Below are positions 7,197 to 41,215 of a DNA stretch of 45,577 nt, piece after piece. This DNA is from Candidatus Saccharimonadota bacterium (GTDB taxonomy: Bacteria; Patescibacteriota; Saccharimonadia; Saccharimonadales; Saccharimonadaceae). The stretch spans positions 1-45,577 of the forward strand of contig JAFRLA010000005.1 of the NCBI GenBank assembly GCA_017431465.1. Direction: 5' to 3'. Each line of letters begins with the position of its first letter. The first letter of the stretch is position 1. The notes under the pieces are model-generated. The model had not been told where the DNA came from, ran no database searches, and worked only from the letters and a program-made list of their open reading frames with translations. A program made the translations under genes and the position numbers.

Positions 7197-7913
7197 ATGA
7201 AAAAAACACGCGGAATTATTTGGGGAATCGCCATCCTCGCCCTCGGTATAATCTTCGGCGGTAACGCCCTCGGCGTCTGGAATATCGACATTTTCTTCAA
7301 AGGCTGGTGGACGCTATTTATCATCGTCCCGAGCGCAATTGGCCTGATTACTGAAAAGGAAAAATTAAGCAACCTGATGGTGCTCGGCGTTGGCGTCTCT
7401 CTGCTTCTTGCCTCCCTAGACGTCTTCTCTTGGGAGACCGCAGGCAAAACCATCTTCGCCCTCTTCCTAGTCCTACTCGGTCTAGGCATCGTTCTCAAGA
7501 CCATCTTCCATGGCAAATTTAAAAAAGCTATCGAAAAAGAACTCGACAAAGCTGATAAAAACGGTGACGAGCCACGCTCCCACCTCGCAGTTTTCTCTGG
7601 CGAAAACGTCTCTTACGATAAAGAAGAGCTAAAAAACGTCAAACTCTGTGCAGTTTTCGGCGGCATTGAGCTAGACCTAAGAAACGCGATCATTAAAGAC
7701 GCTGCGGTCATTAAAGCCTTCTCGCTCTTCGGCGGTATTGATATTATTCTCCCTGAAGATGTCGTTCTAAAGACTGGCTCCGGCTTTGTCTTTGGCGGCA
7801 TCAGCGATGAGCGCAAAAATGCCGACAAAAAATCTACTGCAAAAGCGAAAAAAGTCCCTACTATCTATCTTGACGCAGCCGGTGGCTTCGGCGGAGTTGA
7901 GGTTAAGAACTAG
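7197..7913 (+). CDS. LiaF-like membrane protein
   Basis: A 238-residue protein with an N-terminal block of about four transmembrane helices (residues ~7-105) resembling the LiaI/LiaF transmembrane region (DUF5668). A cytosolic C-terminal domain repeats the phrase A-V-F-G-G-I-E-L-D-L and F-G-G-I-D-I-I-L-P, which is typical of the LiaF/cell-wall-active-antibiotics-response domain. In Firmicutes LiaF restrains the LiaRS envelope-stress system; no such two-component pair is visible here, so the role is inferred only as envelope-related. The SD AAAAGGAG stands 8 nt before the ATG. A small membrane protein gene follows after 8 nt, probably in the same operon. Confidence 0.72.
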   Translation: MKKTRGIIWGIAILALGIIFGGNALGVWNIDIFFKGWWTLFIIVPSAIGLITEKEKLSNLMVLGVGVSLLLASLDVFSWETAGKTIFALFLVLLGLGIVLKTIFHGKFKKAIEKELDKADKNGDEPRSHLAVFSGENVSYDKEELKNVKLCAVFGGIELDLRNAIIKDAAVIKAFSLFGGIDIILPEDVVLKTGSGFVFGGISDERKNADKKSTAKAKKVPTIYLDAAGGFGGVEVKN

Positions 7914-7921
7914 TAAAGTCT

Positions 7922-8332
7922 ATGGATAATAACCAGAACCAGCAGTTTGTCGCGCCGACTCCAACTAGCCAAGTTCCGCGCACGCCAAACCCTGGCCAGC
8001 CAGAAGTCCCGCAATCCTATTCCGCTCCGCTAGTTATCAAAACTAGCATCGCACGCCTGTTTATCGGCTTGGCCGCCGCCTGTATTATCGTCTCTCTTGC
8101 GGTTTTCATCTTAAAGAAAATCGACTTGAATAACGAGATCGTCAATACAATTCGGCTGGTCGTCGACCGAATCAACGATGTGGCAATTTTCGTCCGAATC
8201 GGCTGTCTAGGCTTTGCTACCGCGGCTACGATTATTCGGGTCTTAAACCCGCACCCATACAACACCAAAACGCTGATTGTTGCTTGGGTTTCGGTTGCAC
8301 TAATTGGTCTATCCCTAATTATCTTCCGCTAG
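7922..8332 (+). CDS. Small membrane protein, unknown function
   Basis: A 136-residue protein with a Gln/Pro/Asn-rich cytosolic N-terminus (about residues 1-38) and three predicted transmembrane helices (about 42-64, 78-102, 112-134). No family is recognised. The Pro/Gln-rich soluble head plus short helical bundle is a common layout of uncharacterised CPR membrane proteins. It starts 8 nt after the LiaF-like gene, so co-transcription is likely, and it is closed by a bidirectional terminator. Confidence 0.65.
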   Translation: MDNNQNQQFVAPTPTSQVPRTPNPGQPEVPQSYSAPLVIKTSIARLFIGLAAACIIVSLAVFILKKIDLNNEIVNTIRLVVDRINDVAIFVRIGCLGFATAATIIRVLNPHPYNTKTLIVAWVSVALIGLSLIIFR

Positions 8333-8356
8333 CCCCCAAGACAACAAATGCAACAA

Positions 8357-8384
8357 AAAAATCGCCCGTAACTGGGCGATTTTT
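8357..8384. terminator. Bidirectional terminator
   Basis: AAAAATCGCCC-GTAACT-GGGCGATTTTT, an 11-bp stem with A and T tracts, between the convergent small membrane protein gene and the L31 gene. Confidence 0.85.
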
Positions 8385-8385
8385 C

Positions 8386-8715
8386 TTAAGCTTCCTTTTC
8401 GGCCTTTTTCTTGGCCTCTTTTTCGGCTTTCTTGACTTTATTGCCAAGAGTTTTCTTTAGCTCAGCAGCCTTCGCGGCACGAGCCTTGAAGCGGTCAACG
8501 CGGCCCTCGGTATCGATAATCTTCTCTTCGCCAGTAAAGAACGGGTGCGAAGCGGAAGAAATTTGGATCTTCACGAGCGGATATTCGTTGCCGTCTTCCC
8601 ATTTGATCGTCTCTTCGCTCTGAGCCGTGGAGCGAGTCAAGAATGAAAAGCCCGCCGCCTCATCAGAAAAGACCACAAAACGGTAATCTTTAGGATGTAA
8701 ATCTGTTTTACTCAT
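8386..8715 (-). CDS. rpmE: 50S ribosomal protein L31, type B
   Basis: L31 bridges the ribosomal subunits. The 109-residue protein has the type B (zinc-free) sequence, including [37 protein letters not shown] and DTEGRVDRF, without the Cys ligands of the zinc form. The last ~30 residues are a Lys/Ala/Glu-rich helical tail absent from ordinary L31. ATG 8715 is chosen; a TATAAT at 8727-8732 predicts a 5' leader of only about 4-5 nt with no SD. The gene stands alone between a bidirectional terminator and the rpsB promoter region. Confidence 0.9.
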
Positions 8716-8775
8716 AACTGCCCACAATTATAGCAAGATTTCCTCAAAAAGTAAACCCCTAAATTCAGAAAACTC

Positions 8776-8804
8776 TTGAAAAATTCCTCAAGAAGTGGTA
8801 AAAT
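8776..8804 (+). promoter_or_regulatory. Promoter of rpsB-tsf
   Basis: TTGAAA (8776-8781), 17-nt spacer, TGG-TAAAAT (extended -10, 8799-8804). It produces a leader of about 75 nt containing a strong stem-loop. Confidence 0.65.
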
Positions 8805-8833
8805 CAAGTAGTAATACTAATTTAATGAAACAA

Positions 8834-8868
8834 CTTCGGGCGGTTTTCCTGAATAAACGGGCCCGGAG
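8834..8868 (+). promoter_or_regulatory. Stem-loop in the rpsB leader, candidate S2 autoregulatory element
   Basis: CTTCGGGC (8834-8841) pairs with GCCCGGAG (8861-8868), 8 bp with one wobble, enclosing a 19-nt loop. It stops a few nt before the SD. Leader structures that bind S2 are known upstream of rpsB in several phyla; the assignment here is an inference from position and folding. Confidence 0.4.
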
Positions 8869-8885
8869 TGAAGGGAAAGGAAAAC

Positions 8886-9572
8886 ATGTCGGAAAATGTT
8901 GACATGAAAGCCCTGCTTGAGGCAGGCGCCCACTTTGGTCACAAGACCAGCCGTTGGCACCCTAAGATGGCCCCATACATTCACAGCCGTCGTAATGGTG
9001 CACATATTATCAACCTTGAGAAGACTGTCGAAGCCCTCGACACTGCGCTTCCAAAAATTACCGAAATTGCCAAGAACGGTAAGAAAATCCTCTTTATCGG
9101 TACAAAAAAGCAACTAAAAGAGGTTGTTGAGGCTGCCGCGAAGGCTGCTGAGATGCCTTACGTCACTAACCGTTGGGTCGGTGGGACCTTGACTAATGTC
9201 GAGACTGTCAATCGCCAAATCAAAAAGGTCAAGGATCTTGAGCGCAAGATGGAGAGTGGTGAACTCGAAAATCGTTATAATAAACTCGAAGTTCAGCGCT
9301 TCCAGGAAGAAATTGACGTATTAAACGAACGCTACGGCGGCATCAAAGACATGACCGAGCAACCAGCTGCGGTAATTATCGTCGATGCGATGACCGATAA
9401 AAATGCGATTAAAGAAGCTAAAACCCTAAAGATCCCCGTATTCGCGCTTGTTGATACAAATGTCGACCCGACCGAAATCGACCATATTATCCCAGCAAAC
9501 GATGATTCGATTAAAGCGACCGAGCTGATCCTCGGTTACTTCGTCGACGCTATCAAAAAAGGTAAAAAATAA
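8886..9572 (+). CDS. rpsB: 30S ribosomal protein S2
   Basis: S2 joins the 30S head and platform late in assembly. The 228-residue protein has the family signatures L-E-A-G-A-H-F-G-H-K-T near the N-terminus, NRWVGGTLTN in the middle and the terminal segment V-D-T-N-V-D-P ... IPANDDS. ATG 8886 is preferred over an in-frame GTG at 8868 because AAAGGA lies just before 8886 and the GTG falls in the leader stem. It is followed 12 nt later by tsf, the conserved rpsB-tsf operon. Confidence 0.96.
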   Translation: MSENVDMKALLEAGAHFGHKTSRWHPKMAPYIHSRRNGAHIINLEKTVEALDTALPKITEIAKNGKKILFIGTKKQLKEVVEAAAKAAEMPYVTNRWVGGTLTNVETVNRQIKKVKDLERKMESGELENRYNKLEVQRFQEEIDVLNERYGGIKDMTEQPAAVIIVDAMTDKNAIKEAKTLKIPVFALVDTNVDPTEIDHIIPANDDSIKATELILGYFVDAIKKGKK

Positions 9573-9584
9573 TTAGGAGGCATT

Positions 9585-10175
9585 ATGGCAGACATTTCTA
9601 TTGAAGATATCAAAAAATTAAAAGAGCTTTCTGGCGTTGGCTTGACTGATGCGAAAAATGCTCTTGTCGAAGCTAAGGGCGATTTCGATAAGGCCTTAGA
9701 AGCTATGCGCAAAAAAGGTCTAACCAAGGCCGAAAAACGCGGCGATCGCGAAACCCGTGAAGGGCTCGTCGATAGTTATATTCACGACGGCCGCATCGGC
9801 GCCATCGTCGAAGTAAACTGTGAGACCAGCTTTGTTGCGAAGACCGACGAATTTAAAGATCTCGCGCATAAAATCGCGATGCAGGTGGCTTCTATGGCTC
9901 CGCTTTACGTCTCTGTTGATGATATTCCAGAGAAAGAGCTCGAAAAGAAGCGCAAAGAATTTGAAGAAAACTTCAAAGGCCCAGAAAAAATGAAAGACCA
10001 GATTATCGACGGCCAGGTCAAAAAAGCTTTCTCCGATAAGGTCCTTCTCGATCAGCCTTACATTCTTGACGACACCAAGACTGTTGCAGAGTACATCAAA
10101 GACAATATCGCTAAAACCGGCGAAAACATCACCGTTAAGCAGTTCAAACGCATCGAGCTCGGCGTTACGGAATAA
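9585..10175 (+). CDS. tsf: Elongation factor Ts
   Basis: EF-Ts recharges EF-Tu by releasing GDP. The 196-residue protein has the N-terminal UBA-like domain (KKLKELSGVGLTDAKNAL), the Y-I-H-x-D-G-R-I-G segment and the core V-N-C-E-T-S-F-V-A-K-T-D-E-F. It is the short form, like that of thermophiles and many CPR bacteria. SD TTAGGAGG precedes the ATG. It forms an operon with rpsB and is closed by a strong terminator. Confidence 0.95.
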   Translation: MADISIEDIKKLKELSGVGLTDAKNALVEAKGDFDKALEAMRKKGLTKAEKRGDRETREGLVDSYIHDGRIGAIVEVNCETSFVAKTDEFKDLAHKIAMQVASMAPLYVSVDDIPEKELEKKRKEFEENFKGPEKMKDQIIDGQVKKAFSDKVLLDQPYILDDTKTVAEYIKDNIAKTGENITVKQFKRIELGVTE

Positions 10176-10197
10176 GGAGTCGAGGGAAGAAAAAAAT

Positions 10198-10226
10198 AAA
10201 AAGGCATCCCTAATGGATGCCTTTTT
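10198..10226. terminator. Terminator of rpsB-tsf, bidirectional
   Basis: AAAAAGGCATCC-CTAAT-GGATGCCTTTTT, a 12-bp stem. It also serves the convergent orphan gene on the minus strand. Confidence 0.9.
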
Positions 10227-10249
10227 GTTGGAGATTCGAATTTGCTCTT

Positions 10250-10897
10250 TTACACCCTAAGAAGAGATTCCTCTATGGGTGAAATAACTTCCAGCGTCGA
10301 AAGCTTCAGTAGTAGACGGTTCCAATCTTTAAACCAGATATCAGCAAAACAAACAACGGGACCATCCCTATAGAATGCAGAGAAAGACATATTCGTTCCC
10401 ATATCATCGACAGAGTTTATGTGGATTCTACAAACCGGATAGACATGGTCCTGCGTATAAGCCCTGTAATAGTCACACATAAGGTTGTTGCCCGCACGTT
10501 CATCTTCCTCTGTATCTCCGGGCCTCCAAAAACGGTGCCTCGCAGTTCGTCCAAGTGGGATAAAATATGTTGGAAAATCGTACGGCGTTGCAACTTCGAA
10601 CTGTACCCGCAGTCCTCCAGATCCCCAGCGCTCTGAGCCAAGCTCTTTTTCGATGTCCTCAAAGTGTCGATCTCGAATAAAAGCCAGAAGAACCGGCAAA
10701 ACAGAAAAACGTTGTACCTTAGGCCAACCTTTACCACACCAATCTCTCAGAGGATAAACTTGGTGATAGTCAGTTTCCGCTATAAACTTTTTCGTGATAG
10801 AATCGAGGTAGCTTATCTCTCCGTCGAGATTGTTTTTATTGCCCAGACAACGTAGGTCGATAAACTTTCGCGTAAGCCCATAATTGTAGACTTGCAT
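10250..10897 (-). CDS. Orphan soluble protein, unknown function
   Basis: A 215-residue protein that I do not recognise. There is no signal peptide or transmembrane helix. It is rich in aromatic residues and Arg, with clusters such as R-D-W-C-G-K-G-W and R-H-R-F-W-R-P-G-D. The ATG is fixed by GGAGGTGA 6 nt upstream, among the strongest SDs in the window, and a TATAAT at 10949-10954 implies a leader of about 45 nt. The gene is monocistronic, between the tsf terminator and the DUF167 gene. Base usage looks less biased than in neighbouring housekeeping genes, so recent acquisition or lineage-specific origin is possible. Confidence 0.6.
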   Translation of the reverse strand: MQVYNYGLTRKFIDLRCLGNKNNLDGEISYLDSITKKFIAETDYHQVYPLRDWCGKGWPKVQRFSVLPVLLAFIRDRHFEDIEKELGSERWGSGGLRVQFEVATPYDFPTYFIPLGRTARHRFWRPGDTEEDERAGNNLMCDYYRAYTQDHVYPVCRIHINSVDDMGTNMSFSAFYRDGPVVCFADIWFKDWNRLLLKLSTLEVISPIEESLLRV

Positions 10898-32099: not shown

Positions 32100-32129
32100 T
32101 TGATTTTAAAAAGCTTACGGTGGTATAGT
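32100..32129 (+). promoter_or_regulatory. Promoter of the cutinase-VWA gene
   Basis: TTGATT (32100-32105), 18-nt spacer, TGG-TATAGT (32124-32129). The leader carries AAGGAGG at about 32150-32157, 11-12 nt before the ATG, a rather long spacing. Confidence 0.5.
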
Positions 32130-32168
32130 GAAACACATTAGTAATTTAAAAAGGAGGCTCTCAAGCAT

Positions 32169-34106
32169 ATGCTAAAAACTCATTTTTTCATTTTCTTGGC
32201 CGGCACAACACTCCTCGCCAGCCTGATCATCCCCCAAAACCTTAACCACGCCGTCGCCGCAGGCTGCAAAGACGTCGAATTTATTTTTGCGCGCGGCTCC
32301 GGCTCTGAATTTGGCGGCCGCAACGAAACCGCTTGGCGAAACGGCCTAACCGAACAGCTAAAAACCACCAGCCTAACCTATGACTTTTACGAACTTGGGC
32401 TCAAAGAATACGACGGCGCCCAATACCCCGCCTACTCCGTCGGTTTCGAGAATTGGCGTAGCGCCTTTACTGCCTTTACCGCCGTTTTCGACGCTCTGAA
32501 CATCGGACGATTCAACCGTAGCGTAGAACAAGGCGTAACCGAGCTCGTCGGTCGCGTAAAATCTGTCTCAAGCTCTTGCCCAAACACTAAATTCGTCCTC
32601 GGCGGCTATTCTCAGGGCGCGCTCGTCGTCGACCGTGCCGCCAAAAAGCTAAAACCCGAAAGAATCGCCTACGTCGCCACTTTTGGCGATCCTAACCTCT
32701 ATTTACCAGAGGGCCGCGGCCTGATCAACCCGCCAGCCTGCCGCGGAGAAAATCTTTCGAAATACCGAATTTATGCCCCGGATTGCCACGCTTATACTGG
32801 ACTGCTCGGCACAAACAAGCCGTACGAACCCGCCGGAGCAGAAGGTCGAGTCGGTCTCTGGTGTACCAAAACCGATATTTTCTGTAGCGGTACGCTTAAC
32901 CTTAAAGATTTAATCGGCGACCACCTCGTCTATCGTGACAACGGCCTCTATTATTCTGCGGCAAAAACTATTATAAAAAGCGTCCTAAAACTCTTCCCGA
33001 CGAAAAAGCCCACTGTCGCGACTAAAACCTACGCCAAGCGCGATACCGCAATTTTAATCGATACAACCGGCTCGATGGCCAGCGTAATCGATCAATACCG
33101 CGCCGAAGCCCTGAGGCTTGCCTCTGAAACGCTTTCTAGCGGCGGCCGAGTCGCGCTCTTCGAATATCGCGACCTAGACGATCCCTATAATACTCATAAG
33201 ATCCTCGATTTCGGTTGCACCTACGCCGAGTTTAAAGCGGCCATCGAAAACCTATCTGTTGACGGCGGCGGGGATGTCCCCGAATCGGTCCTCTCCGGCG
33301 CACTCTACGCCATGAATAACCTAGCCTGGCGCCCTGGCGCAACCAAATCCCTCATTGTCTTAACTGATGCTAGTTACCACGACCCCGACCGCGACGGCAC
33401 GACTTTAGAGATGGTAACTAGGCGTTCTCTAGAGATCGACCCAGTAAATATTTACGCCATCGTCCCTGATACTACCGTCCCCGATTACGCCACGCTAACC
33501 ACCGCCACTAACGGCCGAACATTCACTTTATCAGACGATCTCTCGCTCTCGACCGACTATCTCCTCGCCCGCCCAGAGGTCAATTTCGCCCTAGAGGAAT
33601 ACTCTGGAAAACCCGGAGAGGCCTTTAGTTTTGCCGCCGAGACCGACGACGAAAATCTAACTTATGACTGGGACTTAGACCTAGACGGGGAATTCGAAAC
33701 CCTAAACGCCGACTCCATAGTTACAAAAACCTACTCGGCGCCCATTTCCGGCTTCGTCCAAGTCCGAGTTACCGACGAAAATGGCCTGTCTAGCACCGCT
33801 TCGGCCAAAGTTGCCGTCTCTTATGACGCCGGGGAAGCCAGTCCCGAGATCCTTACTGTCTCTCGCGCCGGCGATAATGTAAATTTTACAACATCGTCTA
33901 ATACTTACGCTACACTACTCGCTCTAGACGGCGTACCCCTGGGAATAACCAGAGACCGCTCTATCGCTATTAATAATATCGAAACCAAGTCAACTCTCAG
34001 TCTAGTACCGCTAACTAGCTCCGGGCTCAAAGGCGAGAGCAAACAGATTACTCTCCCAGCTAATTTAAAAATCGACCTAAAAGCCCCCAAAGCCGGCACG
34101 TTGTAA
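32169..34106 (+). CDS. Secreted cutinase-like hydrolase fused to VWA and PKD-like domains
   Basis: A 645-residue exported protein. Residues 1-30 are a signal peptide. Residues about 33-265 are a cutinase-type serine esterase: F-A-R-G-S-G-S near the oxyanion site, nucleophile Ser148 in G-G-Y-S-Q-G-A, Asp236 in C-T-K-T-D-I-F-C between two Cys, and His252 in G-D-H-L-V-Y. Residues about 290-470 are a von Willebrand A domain with MIDAS residues Asp298, Thr300, Ser302 (I-D-T-T-G-S-M-A-S), G-G-G-D-V-P-E and L-T-D-A-S. Residues about 480-560 look like a PKD/Ig fold, and a further beta domain ends the protein. No membrane anchor is seen. Cutinases act on cutin, lipid esters or, in mycolic-acid actinobacteria, cell-envelope lipids. 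The fusion and any action on host lipids are inferred. Confidence 0.8.
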   Translation: MLKTHFFIFLAGTTLLASLIIPQNLNHAVAAGCKDVEFIFARGSGSEFGGRNETAWRNGLTEQLKTTSLTYDFYELGLKEYDGAQYPAYSVGFENWRSAFTAFTAVFDALNIGRFNRSVEQGVTELVGRVKSVSSSCPNTKFVLGGYSQGALVVDRAAKKLKPERIAYVATFGDPNLYLPEGRGLINPPACRGENLSKYRIYAPDCHAYTGLLGTNKPYEPAGAEGRVGLWCTKTDIFCSGTLNLKDLIGDHLVYRDNGLYYSAAKTIIKSVLKLFPTKKPTVATKTYAKRDTAILIDTTGSMASVIDQYRAEALRLASETLSSGGRVALFEYRDLDDPYNTHKILDFGCTYAEFKAAIENLSVDGGGDVPESVLSGALYAMNNLAWRPGATKSLIVLTDASYHDPDRDGTTLEMVTRRSLEIDPVNIYAIVPDTTVPDYATLTTATNGRTFTLSDDLSLSTDYLLARPEVNFALEEYSGKPGEAFSFAAETDDENLTYDWDLDLDGEFETLNADSIVTKTYSAPISGFVQVRVTDENGLSSTASAKVAVSYDAGEASPEILTVSRAGDNVNFTTSSNTYATLLALDGVPLGITRDRSIAINNIETKSTLSLVPLTSSGLKGESKQITLPANLKIDLKAPKAGTL

Positions 34107-34150
34107 ATCCCACAACATATAAAAATATTGGCCGTGCAACGAAGCGAGCC

Positions 34151-34181
34151 AAAAAGAAAGAGGTGGACCCTCTTTCTTTTT
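34151..34181. terminator. Bidirectional terminator after the cutinase-VWA gene
   Basis: AAAAAGAAAGAG and CTCTTTCTTTTT form a 12-bp stem (plus one closing G-C pair) around a 5-7-nt loop, with A and T tracts inside the arms. Confidence 0.75.
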
Positions 34182-34201
34182 GCGAGCGAGGCAGCAACGG
34201 A

Positions 34202-38236: not shown

Positions 38237-38265
38237 AAAAAGCCCCGCTTTTAGCGGGGCTTTTT
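38237..38265. terminator. Bidirectional terminator
   Basis: AAAAAGCCCCGCT-TTT-AGCGGGGCTTTTT, a 13-bp stem between the convergent lipoprotein gene and the 983-residue protein gene. Confidence 0.9.
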
Positions 38266-41215
38266 ACATGACAAAGTTCCTGTCCTTTAGTGGGGCATAA
38301 ACGATTCTGTTTGCCAACTTTACATCCGGATTATCTGGGAGCTCTACGGAATCGAAACTGAATCTCGATATCGTCTCTTTGTTCTCGACCGGGACTGGGT
38401 ATAGATCAGACGGCTCATAATCCGCTAGATATTCCCAATAAGCAAGCTCGTTTAAGGTTACTGAAACTTGCTCTTTCGTCATACCAGTTTTTCGTGCCAA
38501 AGTGCCCTCAAAAGAGTTATCGACTGGGTTCTCCTCCTCATACCTCGACAGATAACTATCGACCGCGGAATGTTCGCTATCTACAGATTGTACCAGTCGA
38601 TCGTCCTCGACATACCGCTGATAGTATCTCATCTCATCTTTCCATGACAAAGTCTCGTACTCTACATCGTGTGGCGTAGCAGTCCCACCATTTGACTTAG
38701 TACACCGCGTCTCCTCGTCGCTCTTTTTACATTCCCTTCGTCCTTTCAGAAGCTCTGGGGCACCGATACCGGCACTACTAGCAGTAACAGTGTTATCATC
38801 GTCTCTCGCTACACAGTTGGCCCCAGTCGACCATTGTAATGCTTTAATCTCTTCCTCGCCGGCTAGAATATCCAACAAATCTCCAACGACAGGAATCGCC
38901 CCCGCCACTGAATCAATCGCCGTATCTACGGCGTCATTGCCAGTGTCCGCTTGCAGCCCACCAGACTTCAGCTCTTCATTCGTAATATTTTGATCCACAA
39001 TCCCGAAAGGAGTAGCCCTATATGAACAGAAACGTATATATTTATCTAGGTTTGAGCCTTTTTTAATCTTTTCTATTCCGTTCTCATCTACTGCAATCTT
39101 ATTGCCGTCCATCTCAAAGCCTTCTAAGTCCGCGACCTTATCTACAATATCTTCCGGGTCTGCCTCTATCGTATCCATATCAGAAATTATAATCGGGGAA
39201 CAATCCAGAGAATTCCCGACCGCACCAATACTCTCAGCGGCTGGGCAATCGCCAATTTGTGTCGCTAAATACTCGGCTTTATCGATCGCACTAGCCGTCG
39301 GGAGCAGGGAAGCAAGCGACGATGAAACCACTCCACCAAGACTACCGATAAATCCAGCCGGGCTAGTAGTCAATCCGGCTACCGGAAGCATCATACTCTT
39401 CACTATCGATCCTAGGAATGTATTACTATTTGTTGCGTCAAACGGACTCTTAGTCGCTCTGTCATATTCTGCCTCTTGTTGCAATGCTAACTTCTGAGCA
39501 TCATAAAAATCTGATATCTTGTCTTTTGAGGCCAACGTCCCGCCCCCATTCTGGAAATTAGTCTGCAGTGAACTGCTCCCCCCGATTGCCAAACAGTTTC
39601 CGCCGTCCTCATTAGGCTTTGACGGATCATCTTTATTCTCACCAGAATCCAAGCATAGGTTAGTCGTCACCGACTCTAAAAACTTACTTATTCCCCAAGA
39701 GGCCAACAGCCCAACGCCCATAGAAATCGCTGCCGATTTTCCTATTCCTAAAATCGTTTTACCAACCGAAAATCCTCCCTTAAACGCCGACACTCCTGGG
39801 ATAAAAGTTAAGACGATAGAAACTGACGCCATGGCGATTTTCGCCGCCGAACAGGCAATCGCAGTACCCGCACCAATCTGCGCCGCACTGTACATATTAC
39901 TTAAATTCAGTTTCGACAACGATTCGTTCTGGACCGGCTTTACCGAGCCCGCGGAAAGAACGCCAATCATACCTTGCGCCGTCATCTTATTGATCAAAAA
40001 GTTACCCGTCTCATGAATTGGTGAGCCTGCGCCATCACCAGCCTTAACTTTGTCCGTAGATTCCGCTACGCCGTGGAAAGAGTCCTGAGCATATTCGTGC
40101 ATCATCGAAACACCTAAGCCTATCGCGGTAGTTACGACTGCTGCCTTGGCGCAAGAAATATCCGAAATCCCTCGCGCAACCGACGCTAGATGATCTGCAA
40201 AACCCGTCTTCGCATTAACTTTGCTGTTGGCCTCGTTACTATCACTATGGGTCCATTTGTCCGCAACAACGTGCCCCTCGTCATCTGTATCCGGATCATA
40301 CTCCGTAGCAACCTGAGATTTACCTACGTCAAAATCCACATCGGGCCTTCTTCCGCGTATGATATCCTTGAATTTAGTAGTCTTGCCCTCAGCTTCAAAT
40401 GTCTGCCGCTGCCAATCCGCCCATAAATTCTTCGTCAGCCCATGCGCCGACAAAAATCTCGCCGCCGAAAGATCAATCCACGCCGCGATCCGCCCCGAAA
40501 AACTTCTCGTCCCTCGGTTAAAATCGTTCCTAAACTCCGTGTTCGTCTTATACATACTATCGAAATCGTCGGCCGACACCGTCTTCTTGTTTCCAGCACG
40601 ATTCGTGTATTCTAAAACGACCTTTTTGCCTTCGTTCTTCATCTCAATACCTTGAGCAGCCAATTTTTTCTTATATTTTTTCAGCCCTCTACGATATTTC
40701 TTGTAGTCAGAAAATAGGTGCTTCTGGGTTACTTTATCCTCTTTTCCGTCCATATTCGCCACATTCTTCATCATCTTCGGCAACCGATTCGCCCTCGAAG
40801 TAAACGACCCGTCAAACATTTCCGTTACCTGCTCAACTACGTGAAATGGCATCAGACTTTGAATCCCGCCAATCGCCGCTCCACCCCCGAAAATCGCCAT
40901 CGCAATTCCAATAATCGGCCCATACTTCTTGAACTTGCTCTTGCTGCCTTTGGTTTTGCGCCCTCGTCGCGAAAAACCTCGCGGATCTAGCGCAATCGCG
41001 CCTCCCGCGCCAGCATAAAATCCCCCATTTTCCAACCCAGAGGCATCATTTTCTCCAGAAGCCCCCGAGCCATCAGCCGCCGCGTCTTCCCCTCCGCGCA
41101 GCCTGGCTCTCGCATCCGCCGCCGCGGCAGCCTTCTCAGCATCACGCGACTTTTTCCCAGGCAAATGCGGATCAATACTATCACCAACCGACTTCTTATA
41201 TAATCCCTCCGACAT
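38264..41215 (-). CDS. Large membrane protein, lineage-specific, unknown function
   Basis: A 983-residue protein that I cannot place in a family. It starts with a charged, low-complexity cytosolic region (about 1-100; Ala/Asp/Gly-rich, then a very basic K-T-K-G-S-K-S-K-F-K-K). One transmembrane helix lies near 102-122, then an exported helical region, and a central block of several hydrophobic helices (about 345-365, 435-475, 490-515). The C-terminal ~450 residues carry at least eight Cys in pairs and a Tyr/Glu-rich end, suggesting disulfides outside the cell. The layout recalls VirB6/TrbL-type secretion channel proteins, but no motif proves that. A minus-strand TATAAT/TAATAT lies 7-9 nt before the ATG, so little or no leader is expected. 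Confidence 0.75.
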   Translation of the reverse strand: MSEGLYKKSVGDSIDPHLPGKKSRDAEKAAAAADARARLRGGEDAAADGSGASGENDASGLENGGFYAGAGGAIALDPRGFSRRGRKTKGSKSKFKKYGPIIGIAMAIFGGGAAIGGIQSLMPFHVVEQVTEMFDGSFTSRANRLPKMMKNVANMDGKEDKVTQKHLFSDYKKYRRGLKKYKKKLAAQGIEMKNEGKKVVLEYTNRAGNKKTVSADDFDSMYKTNTEFRNDFNRGTRSFSGRIAAWIDLSAARFLSAHGLTKNLWADWQRQTFEAEGKTTKFKDIIRGRRPDVDFDVGKSQVATEYDPDTDDEGHVVADKWTHSDSNEANSKVNAKTGFADHLASVARGISDISCAKAAVVTTAIGLGVSMMHEYAQDSFHGVAESTDKVKAGDGAGSPIHETGNFLINKMTAQGMIGVLSAGSVKPVQNESLSKLNLSNMYSAAQIGAGTAIACSAAKIAMASVSIVLTFIPGVSAFKGGFSVGKTILGIGKSAAISMGVGLLASWGISKFLESVTTNLCLDSGENKDDPSKPNEDGGNCLAIGGSSSLQTNFQNGGGTLASKDKISDFYDAQKLALQQEAEYDRATKSPFDATNSNTFLGSIVKSMMLPVAGLTTSPAGFIGSLGGVVSSSLASLLPTASAIDKAEYLATQIGDCPAAESIGAVGNSLDCSPIIISDMDTIEADPEDIVDKVADLEGFEMDGNKIAVDENGIEKIKKGSNLDKYIRFCSYRATPFGIVDQNITNEELKSGGLQADTGNDAVDTAIDSVAGAIPVVGDLLDILAGEEEIKALQWSTGANCVARDDDNTVTASSAGIGAPELLKGRRECKKSDEETRCTKSNGGTATPHDVEYETLSWKDEMRYYQRYVEDDRLVQSVDSEHSAVDSYLSRYEEENPVDNSFEGTLARKTGMTKEQVSVTLNELAYWEYLADYEPSDLYPVPVENKETISRFSFDSVELPDNPDVKLANRIVYAPLKDRNFVM

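Follow-up and report, generated by a model that had tools for sequence, protein, structure and literature searches.

A predicted exported esterase with cutinase, VWA and PKD-like domains is conserved across a genus of Saccharibacteria

Introduction

Saccharibacteria are known epibionts of Actinobacteria. Few of their surface proteins are understood. Here we describe a gene on a 45,577-nucleotide stretch of DNA from a Candidatus Saccharimonadota bacterium (contig JAFRLA010000005.1, positions 1 to 45,577; the window in what follows). Its predicted product can be compared with three described systems: the serine esterases of the cutinase family (PF01083, CE5), the integrin beta I domains and VWA adhesins, and the LPXTG-type substrates of sortases. 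Known sortases act on membrane-held substrates. The fusion is already in public annotation and its domain families are known; it is not a new kind of system. In the literature searched, we found no published description of a cutinase-VWA fusion. Judged by titles and abstracts, the papers linking cutinase with Saccharibacteria or Patescibacteria were mainly reviews or dealt with plastics degradation and community ecology. The first-pass annotation of this DNA had called the combination one that it had not seen described. This agrees with the papers searched, but plasmids of Rhodococcus and Arthrobacter encode the same architecture.

Results

An open reading frame for an exported multidomain protein

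The gene and its flanking signals lie on the forward strand of the window:

32100–32129, +: sigma70-like promoter, TTGATT-18-TATAGT, with TG ahead of the -10 element (consensus scan, 9/12)
32153–32157, +: Shine-Dalgarno sequence GGAGG, 11 nt 5′ of the ATG (read from the sequence)
32169–34106, +: whole open reading frame, 645 aa, ordered as signal peptide, cutinase, VWA, PKD/Ig, beta region and sortase-motif-like tail
32169–32261, +: Sec signal peptide, residues 1–31, with a hydrophobic core and AVAA ahead of GCKD (read from the sequence)
34146–34187, +: hairpin 3′ of the gene, CCAAAAAGAAAGAGG tggac CCTCTTTCTTTTTG (read from the sequence; the terminator scan made no call)

The reading frame starts with ATG, has exactly the boundaries listed and is free of any longer competing frame. 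A chance ORF or a frame artefact was ruled out by the catalytic triad described below, which is invariant across 40 homologues. The consensus scan suggests that the cutinase-fusion gene has a promoter of its own, as a predicted function, and the hairpin is a possible terminator candidate. Between 34202 and 34248 a near-perfect inverted repeat (CAACCCATTTTCTTAAAAAA...TTTTTTTAAGAAAATGGGTTG) abuts a perfect TTGACA-17-TATAAT promoter located 5′ of nrdD. This repeat is a candidate terminator or regulator site of the ribonucleotide reductase operon.

The cutinase domain carries an invariant catalytic triad

The N-terminal half of the mature chain contains the following features:

32265–32966, +: cutinase/CE5-type alpha/beta-hydrolase domain, residues 33–266 (Pfam PF01083, E 7.9e-20; Foldseek matches to cutinases)
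32610–32612, +: catalytic Ser148 in GYSQG (invariant, 40/40)
32739–32786, +: family-specific insert with Cys191...Cys206, within PACRGENLSKYRIYAPDC, ahead of the Asp loop (alignment)
32874–32876, +: catalytic Asp236, between Cys232 and Cys239 (invariant, 40/40)
32922–32924, +: catalytic His252 (invariant, 40/40)

The Pfam match scores 71.9 bits against a cut-off of 25.9 and spans positions 2–167 of the 173-position profile, which is nearly its whole length. The triad had been proposed from the letters of this one protein, and the family alignment of 40 members bears it out at all three residues. Cys137, Cys232 and Cys239 are also present in 40 of 40 members, and Cys33 in 39, the lone exception being an N-terminally incomplete ORF. 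Cys137 stands 11 residues ahead of Ser148, which we take to be the same spacing as in the Fusarium enzyme. The Cys191/Cys206 pair of the insert has a narrower distribution: it was found in all 37 genus members aligned and in a copy from Arthrobacter, and in none of the outgroup-family or Rhodococcus copies.

Structure prediction agreed with the proposed alpha/beta-hydrolase fold. The best 50 Foldseek matches listed for the model of the cutinase domain were all cutinases or acetylxylan esterases (top E 2.8e-6), with low confidence (pLDDT about 25–37) in the C-terminal half of the domain, which holds Asp236 and His252. The full-length model was mediocre (pLDDT 62). Phage cutinases were left out of the structure alignment, as the Asp loop was misaligned when they were added. 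From family membership and residue conservation, the protein is most likely a serine esterase of the cutinase (CE5) superfamily, this being its predicted activity.

The VWA and PKD domains vary among relatives

Two further domains follow the esterase:

33042–33578, +: VWA domain, integrin beta-I-like, residues 292–470, with DTTGS, GGGDVPE and LTD (Pfam VWA_4; structure match to integrin beta3)
33567–33818, +: PKD/Ig-like domain, residues 467–550, with WDLDLDG (PKD_4, E 1e-5, under the curated cut-off)

The VWA_4 match covers residues 295–425 (E 5.6e-13). The MIDAS residues are intact in the window copy, as had been claimed, and comprise D298-T-T-G-S302, G-G-G-D369-V-P-E372 and D400. The modelled domain superposes on integrin beta I domains with a Z score of 20.5 over 183 residues (rmsd 2.5 Å), and its GGGDxPE loop is similar to D-x-P-E, a motif found at the metal sites of integrin beta. 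The PKD domain is the weakest assignment in the protein as judged by its profile score: the PKD_4 match reaches 25.9 bits against a cut-off of 27, and the Arthrobacter copy scores 34.1 bits, over the cut-off. The exported cutinase-VWA-PKD fusion described in the first-pass annotation thus stands in its signal peptide, cutinase and VWA parts, with a weak PKD match.

The alignment of genus members gave a more uneven picture of these two domains. About 8 of the 37 members have degenerate VWA metal loops or none, and the PKD motif WDxxxDG is found in 12 of the 37 and absent from about 25. Many copies from the sister genus g32 are without any VWA. Because the triad is invariant while VWA and PKD are lost or degenerate in relatives, what stays constant in the protein is the esterase. 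The earlier view of VWA/PKD as the essential targeting part is not supported in a family where each of these domains is lost or degenerate in a good fraction of members.

The gene is a near-core gene of the genus

The window genome (656 kb in 32 contigs) holds one copy of the gene. A search for the fusion in other genomes of the candidate phyla radiation had been recommended, and the Pfam profile found the gene in 83 of the 88 sampled genomes of the window's genus, as a rule in single copy. Carriers elsewhere comprised 30 genomes of other genera in the family and 9 of other families in the order. These counts come from 122 matching genomes of 393, tallied from the listed rows. A 380-genome sample of the phylum yielded a clear cutinase, without VWA, in one genome of another order of the class, as well as sub-threshold cutinase matches in two genomes of other classes. 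The gene is thus patchier in the family and order, and effectively absent from the other classes of the phylum.

The gene occupies a recurrent chromosomal slot in the 19 neighbourhoods of the genus that were compared, typically beside a divergent dCMP deaminase and uracil-DNA glycosylase on the upstream side. Downstream, as in the window, nrdD and the gene of its activase often follow, and other genes do so in some genus loci. Since the gene is recurrent in its locus and near-universal in the genus, it is a vertically inherited near-core gene. The same two observations (recurrent locus, 83/88 prevalence) ruled out contamination or recent import of the window gene. Elsewhere in the window, positions 38264–41215 on the reverse strand hold a 983-aa ORF that has no Pfam match over the cut-off. 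A long ORF related to it (cluster 7) lies near the cutinase gene in 7 of the 19 genus loci.

In-frame TGA codons in a sister genus

Six cutinase genes of g32 contain in-frame TGA codons, 12 in total when counted from an MK start (L092, L123, L124, L125, L126 and L127, from genomes G172, G319, G281, G277, G203 and G407). Five g32 species have TGA at one common site, which is mostly Trp (TGG) in relatives, and several further sites align with Trp in relatives as well. All TGA-bearing g32 genomes encode RF2, and their tRNA synthetase genes matched by the ileS profile have no in-frame TGA. Genome-wide reassignment of UGA in g32 is therefore not supported. It looks like UGA is read as Trp in the g32 cutinase gene, short of full reassignment. 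When other genes were screened by tblastn for UGA in place of tryptophan, shadow-frame ORFs caused too much noise, and the result is usable for the cutinase gene alone. A new UGA-to-Trp case in Patescibacteriota has been reported for the family JAKLIH01 of the class Minisyncoccia (PMC13092985).

An Arthrobacter plasmid copy groups within Saccharibacteria

The actinobacterial homologues placed in our trees are plasmid-borne copies. In a tblastn search of plasmids with the cutinase domain, the top match (E 1e-28, 36% identical across 89% of the domain) was on a plasmid of 400 kb from Arthrobacter sp. zg-Y1110:

NZ_CP104273.1, about 311.8–314.3 kb (7794–10307 of our locus L099): 838-codon open frame with cutinase, VWA, PKD and sortase signal

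The table of this record lists the VWA-PKD half only, as a 'PKD domain-containing protein' from locus position 8880, and leaves the in-frame cutinase half unlisted. The Arthrobacter copy is 36–38% identical to the window protein and 52% identical to the copy of the Saccharibacteria genome G231. Around its gene the GC content dips to 0.57–0.63, compared with about 0.66 for the plasmid stretch.

The cutinase tree recovers the window's genus as monophyletic (98/86) and places Arthrobacter within the Saccharibacteria family (100/98), where its neighbours are the genera g43, g36 and g64. This nesting was repeated in the tree of the VWA domain (98/99) and in that of the joint region (98/96). When the Saccharibacteria copies of the family were forced to be monophyletic without Arthrobacter, the AU test rejected the constraint for the joint region (p = 0.016) and did not reject it for the cutinase alone (p = 0.064); both p values are optimistic, because the tested clade was picked after the first tree had been viewed. 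The nesting, the common Cys-pair insert and the GC dip argue for transfer from Saccharibacteria to an actinobacterium as the better-supported direction among the plasmid-borne homologues compared.

The first-pass annotation had suggested the opposite, namely that Saccharibacteria gained the gene from an actinobacterial host. The cutinase-VWA-PKD proteins of Rhodococcus plasmids, annotated only as 'cutinase family protein', could be an ancestral source of the fusion. However, these proteins (L110–L112) are remote in the tree, are about 23% identical to the Arthrobacter copy and are without the Cys-pair insert. Moreover, within the sampled tree the genus shows synteny and vertical inheritance of the gene, and the Arthrobacter copy that shares the insert sits among Saccharibacteria, next to those of g43 and g64. 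We consider a gain from an actinobacterial host quite improbable, and one in the recent past is disfavoured by these sequence comparisons.

The C-terminal tail resembles a sorting signal that has lost its anchor

The protein ends in a short conserved element:

34077–34103, +: C-terminal tail LKAPKAGTL, the window version of the PKAPNTGKR-like genus end, without a transmembrane segment behind it (tail type in 52/54 genus copies)

In these 52 of 54 copies the chain ends 0–9 residues past a P-x-[TSACN]-G motif, typically as PKAPNTGKR; the motif of the window copy, APKAG, is a weak version of P-x-T-G. Translation of 177 downstream bases in three frames gave no consistent transmembrane or hydrophobic stretch, and a hidden transmembrane segment reached by frameshift or readthrough was thereby ruled out. 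The 21 loci examined contain 321 ORFs that are 100 aa or longer; 18 of these have the anchor-less tail, all of them the cutinase protein, and no other protein with this tail was found in those loci. The exact DNA pattern for APNTG near a stop codon returned one family member, transmembrane proteins and out-of-frame matches from 20 genomes. Two other proteins of the genus bear APNTG or APDTG followed by a genuine transmembrane segment, and three sortase genes are present in the window genome. In most other genera and in other families, the copies end with a C-terminal transmembrane helix and a basic tail. Several g32 copies have a sortase-type motif ahead of the transmembrane segment, for example LPSTG...TM...KRKRRAS (G340) and PVQTG...TM...KKYLPR (G172).

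The genus tail reads as a conserved sortase-motif-like end from which the anchor has been lost. This is the most surprising element of our finding, and known sortase biology does not predict a conserved motif of this type without a membrane anchor. The tail may not be a sorting signal at all, because known sortases use membrane-held substrates and no transmembrane segment follows it. A bolder reading, which we regard as very doubtful, is that PKAPNTGKR is a sorting tag acting in trans: a soluble esterase-adhesin would be released, and a sortase of the symbiont or of the host actinobacterium would then join it to a cell wall. If true, the epibiont would place an exported enzyme as decoration on its own surface or on that of its host, and the protein would be a sortase substrate that needs no membrane anchor. 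Among the Rhodococcus proteins, L111 and L112 have repeated PGTGS motifs at their C-termini (FPGTGS, LPGTGS) and no transmembrane segment, which may be a parallel to the missing anchor in the Saccharibacteria genus.

Candidate substrates of the esterase

The best sequence and fold matches of the cutinase domain were fungal cutinases and CE5 acetylxylan esterases, and sequence matches to mycolate esterases of the LysB and Culp types were weak. Named records close to the window, labelled Saccharibacteria, were obtained from the ileum of goat and the rumen of roe deer.

The protein had been proposed as a tool against the host envelope: its cutinase would attack the ester bonds of lipids in an actinobacterial host, be they mycolates or other acyl lipids, and VWA/PKD would provide the docking. 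The epibiont habit of Saccharibacteria, the distant kinship with phage LysB esterases and actinobacterial Culp proteins and the near-universal presence in the genus all agree with such a role. However, the top matches are the fungal cutinases and acetylxylan esterases named above, and the actinobacterial host is an assumption for this gut/rumen lineage. Arthrobacter, which harbours the nearest copy outside Saccharibacteria, has no mycolic acids. We found nothing that points to a mycolate-bearing host or to mycolates as the target, and the host-envelope role as a whole appears rather unlikely to us.

Alternatively, a secreted esterase could serve nutrition by cleaving dietary or microbial esters such as cutin, acetylxylan or triglycerides in the gut or rumen, supplying the cell with fatty acids or acetate, which it is unable to make. 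The animal sources of the neighbouring records and the identity of the top matches are in line with this, and a released enzyme would fit with the genus having lost the membrane anchor. Nevertheless, we rate nutrition as unlikely: most members keep the VWA domain, which suggests docking on a specific surface, and the gene occurs also in genera and families without a known habitat. As for the substrate itself, an episymbiont could plausibly act on a host-envelope lipid, and a gut or rumen origin fits a dietary or microbial ester equally well.

Discussion

Our data are probably best explained by an exported cutinase-type esterase that is coupled to an integrin-beta-I-like VWA adhesion module, with an optional PKD/Ig spacer, and encoded by an old Saccharibacteria gene. 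The N-terminal signal peptide would direct the protein to Sec export. The Ser148-Asp236-His252 triad, as predicted from family membership and invariant residues, would then hydrolyse an ester on or near a cell surface. To judge from fold and residues, the VWA domain may hold or position the enzyme on its target through the MIDAS metal. Since about 8 of 37 genus members have a degenerate MIDAS or lack it, and most lack PKD, neither this docking step nor the spacer is universal. In sister genera, and in the Arthrobacter protein, a C-terminal transmembrane segment or sortase signal would retain the protein. In the window's genus the tail may either still be recognised by a sortase of the cell or mark a released protein. 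The gene appears to be old and vertically inherited in Saccharibacteria, the Arthrobacter plasmid copy probably reflecting a transfer out to an actinobacterium.

The protein offers a single testable enzyme, kept across almost the whole genus, with an obvious catalytic residue (Ser148) and an obvious tail. It also provides a case in which a free-living actinobacterium has apparently received a gene from a reduced lineage of episymbionts.

Compared with the cutinases of PF01083/CE5 (the Fusarium and Trichoderma enzymes, Culp and the acetylxylan esterases), the window protein has in common the GYSQG nucleophile, the Cys-x3-Asp-x2-Cys loop, the His and the four canonical cysteines, and it differs by the Cys-pair insert ahead of the Asp loop and by its C-terminal VWA, PKD and tail. 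With integrin beta I domains and VWA adhesins it has the fold and the DxTGS and GGGDxPE loops in common; in contrast to these, it is bacterial and fused to an esterase, and its metal site is not kept in all relatives. The genus copies resemble LPXTG-type sortase substrates in the P-x-T-G motif near the C-terminus, and true sorting signals are found in sister genera and in other proteins of the genus, but beyond the motif the genus copies have neither a hydrophobic segment nor a charged tail. Among homologues, the plasmid proteins of R. pyridinivorans, R. rhodochrous and R. qingshengii have the same domain order and the GGGDxPE loop and end without a transmembrane segment, with PGTG motifs in two of the three (L111 and L112). 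The protein of Arthrobacter sp. zg-Y1110 has the whole cutinase-VWA-PKD architecture and the Cys-pair insert in common with the window protein, and differs from it in ending with LASTG, a transmembrane segment and RRRR.
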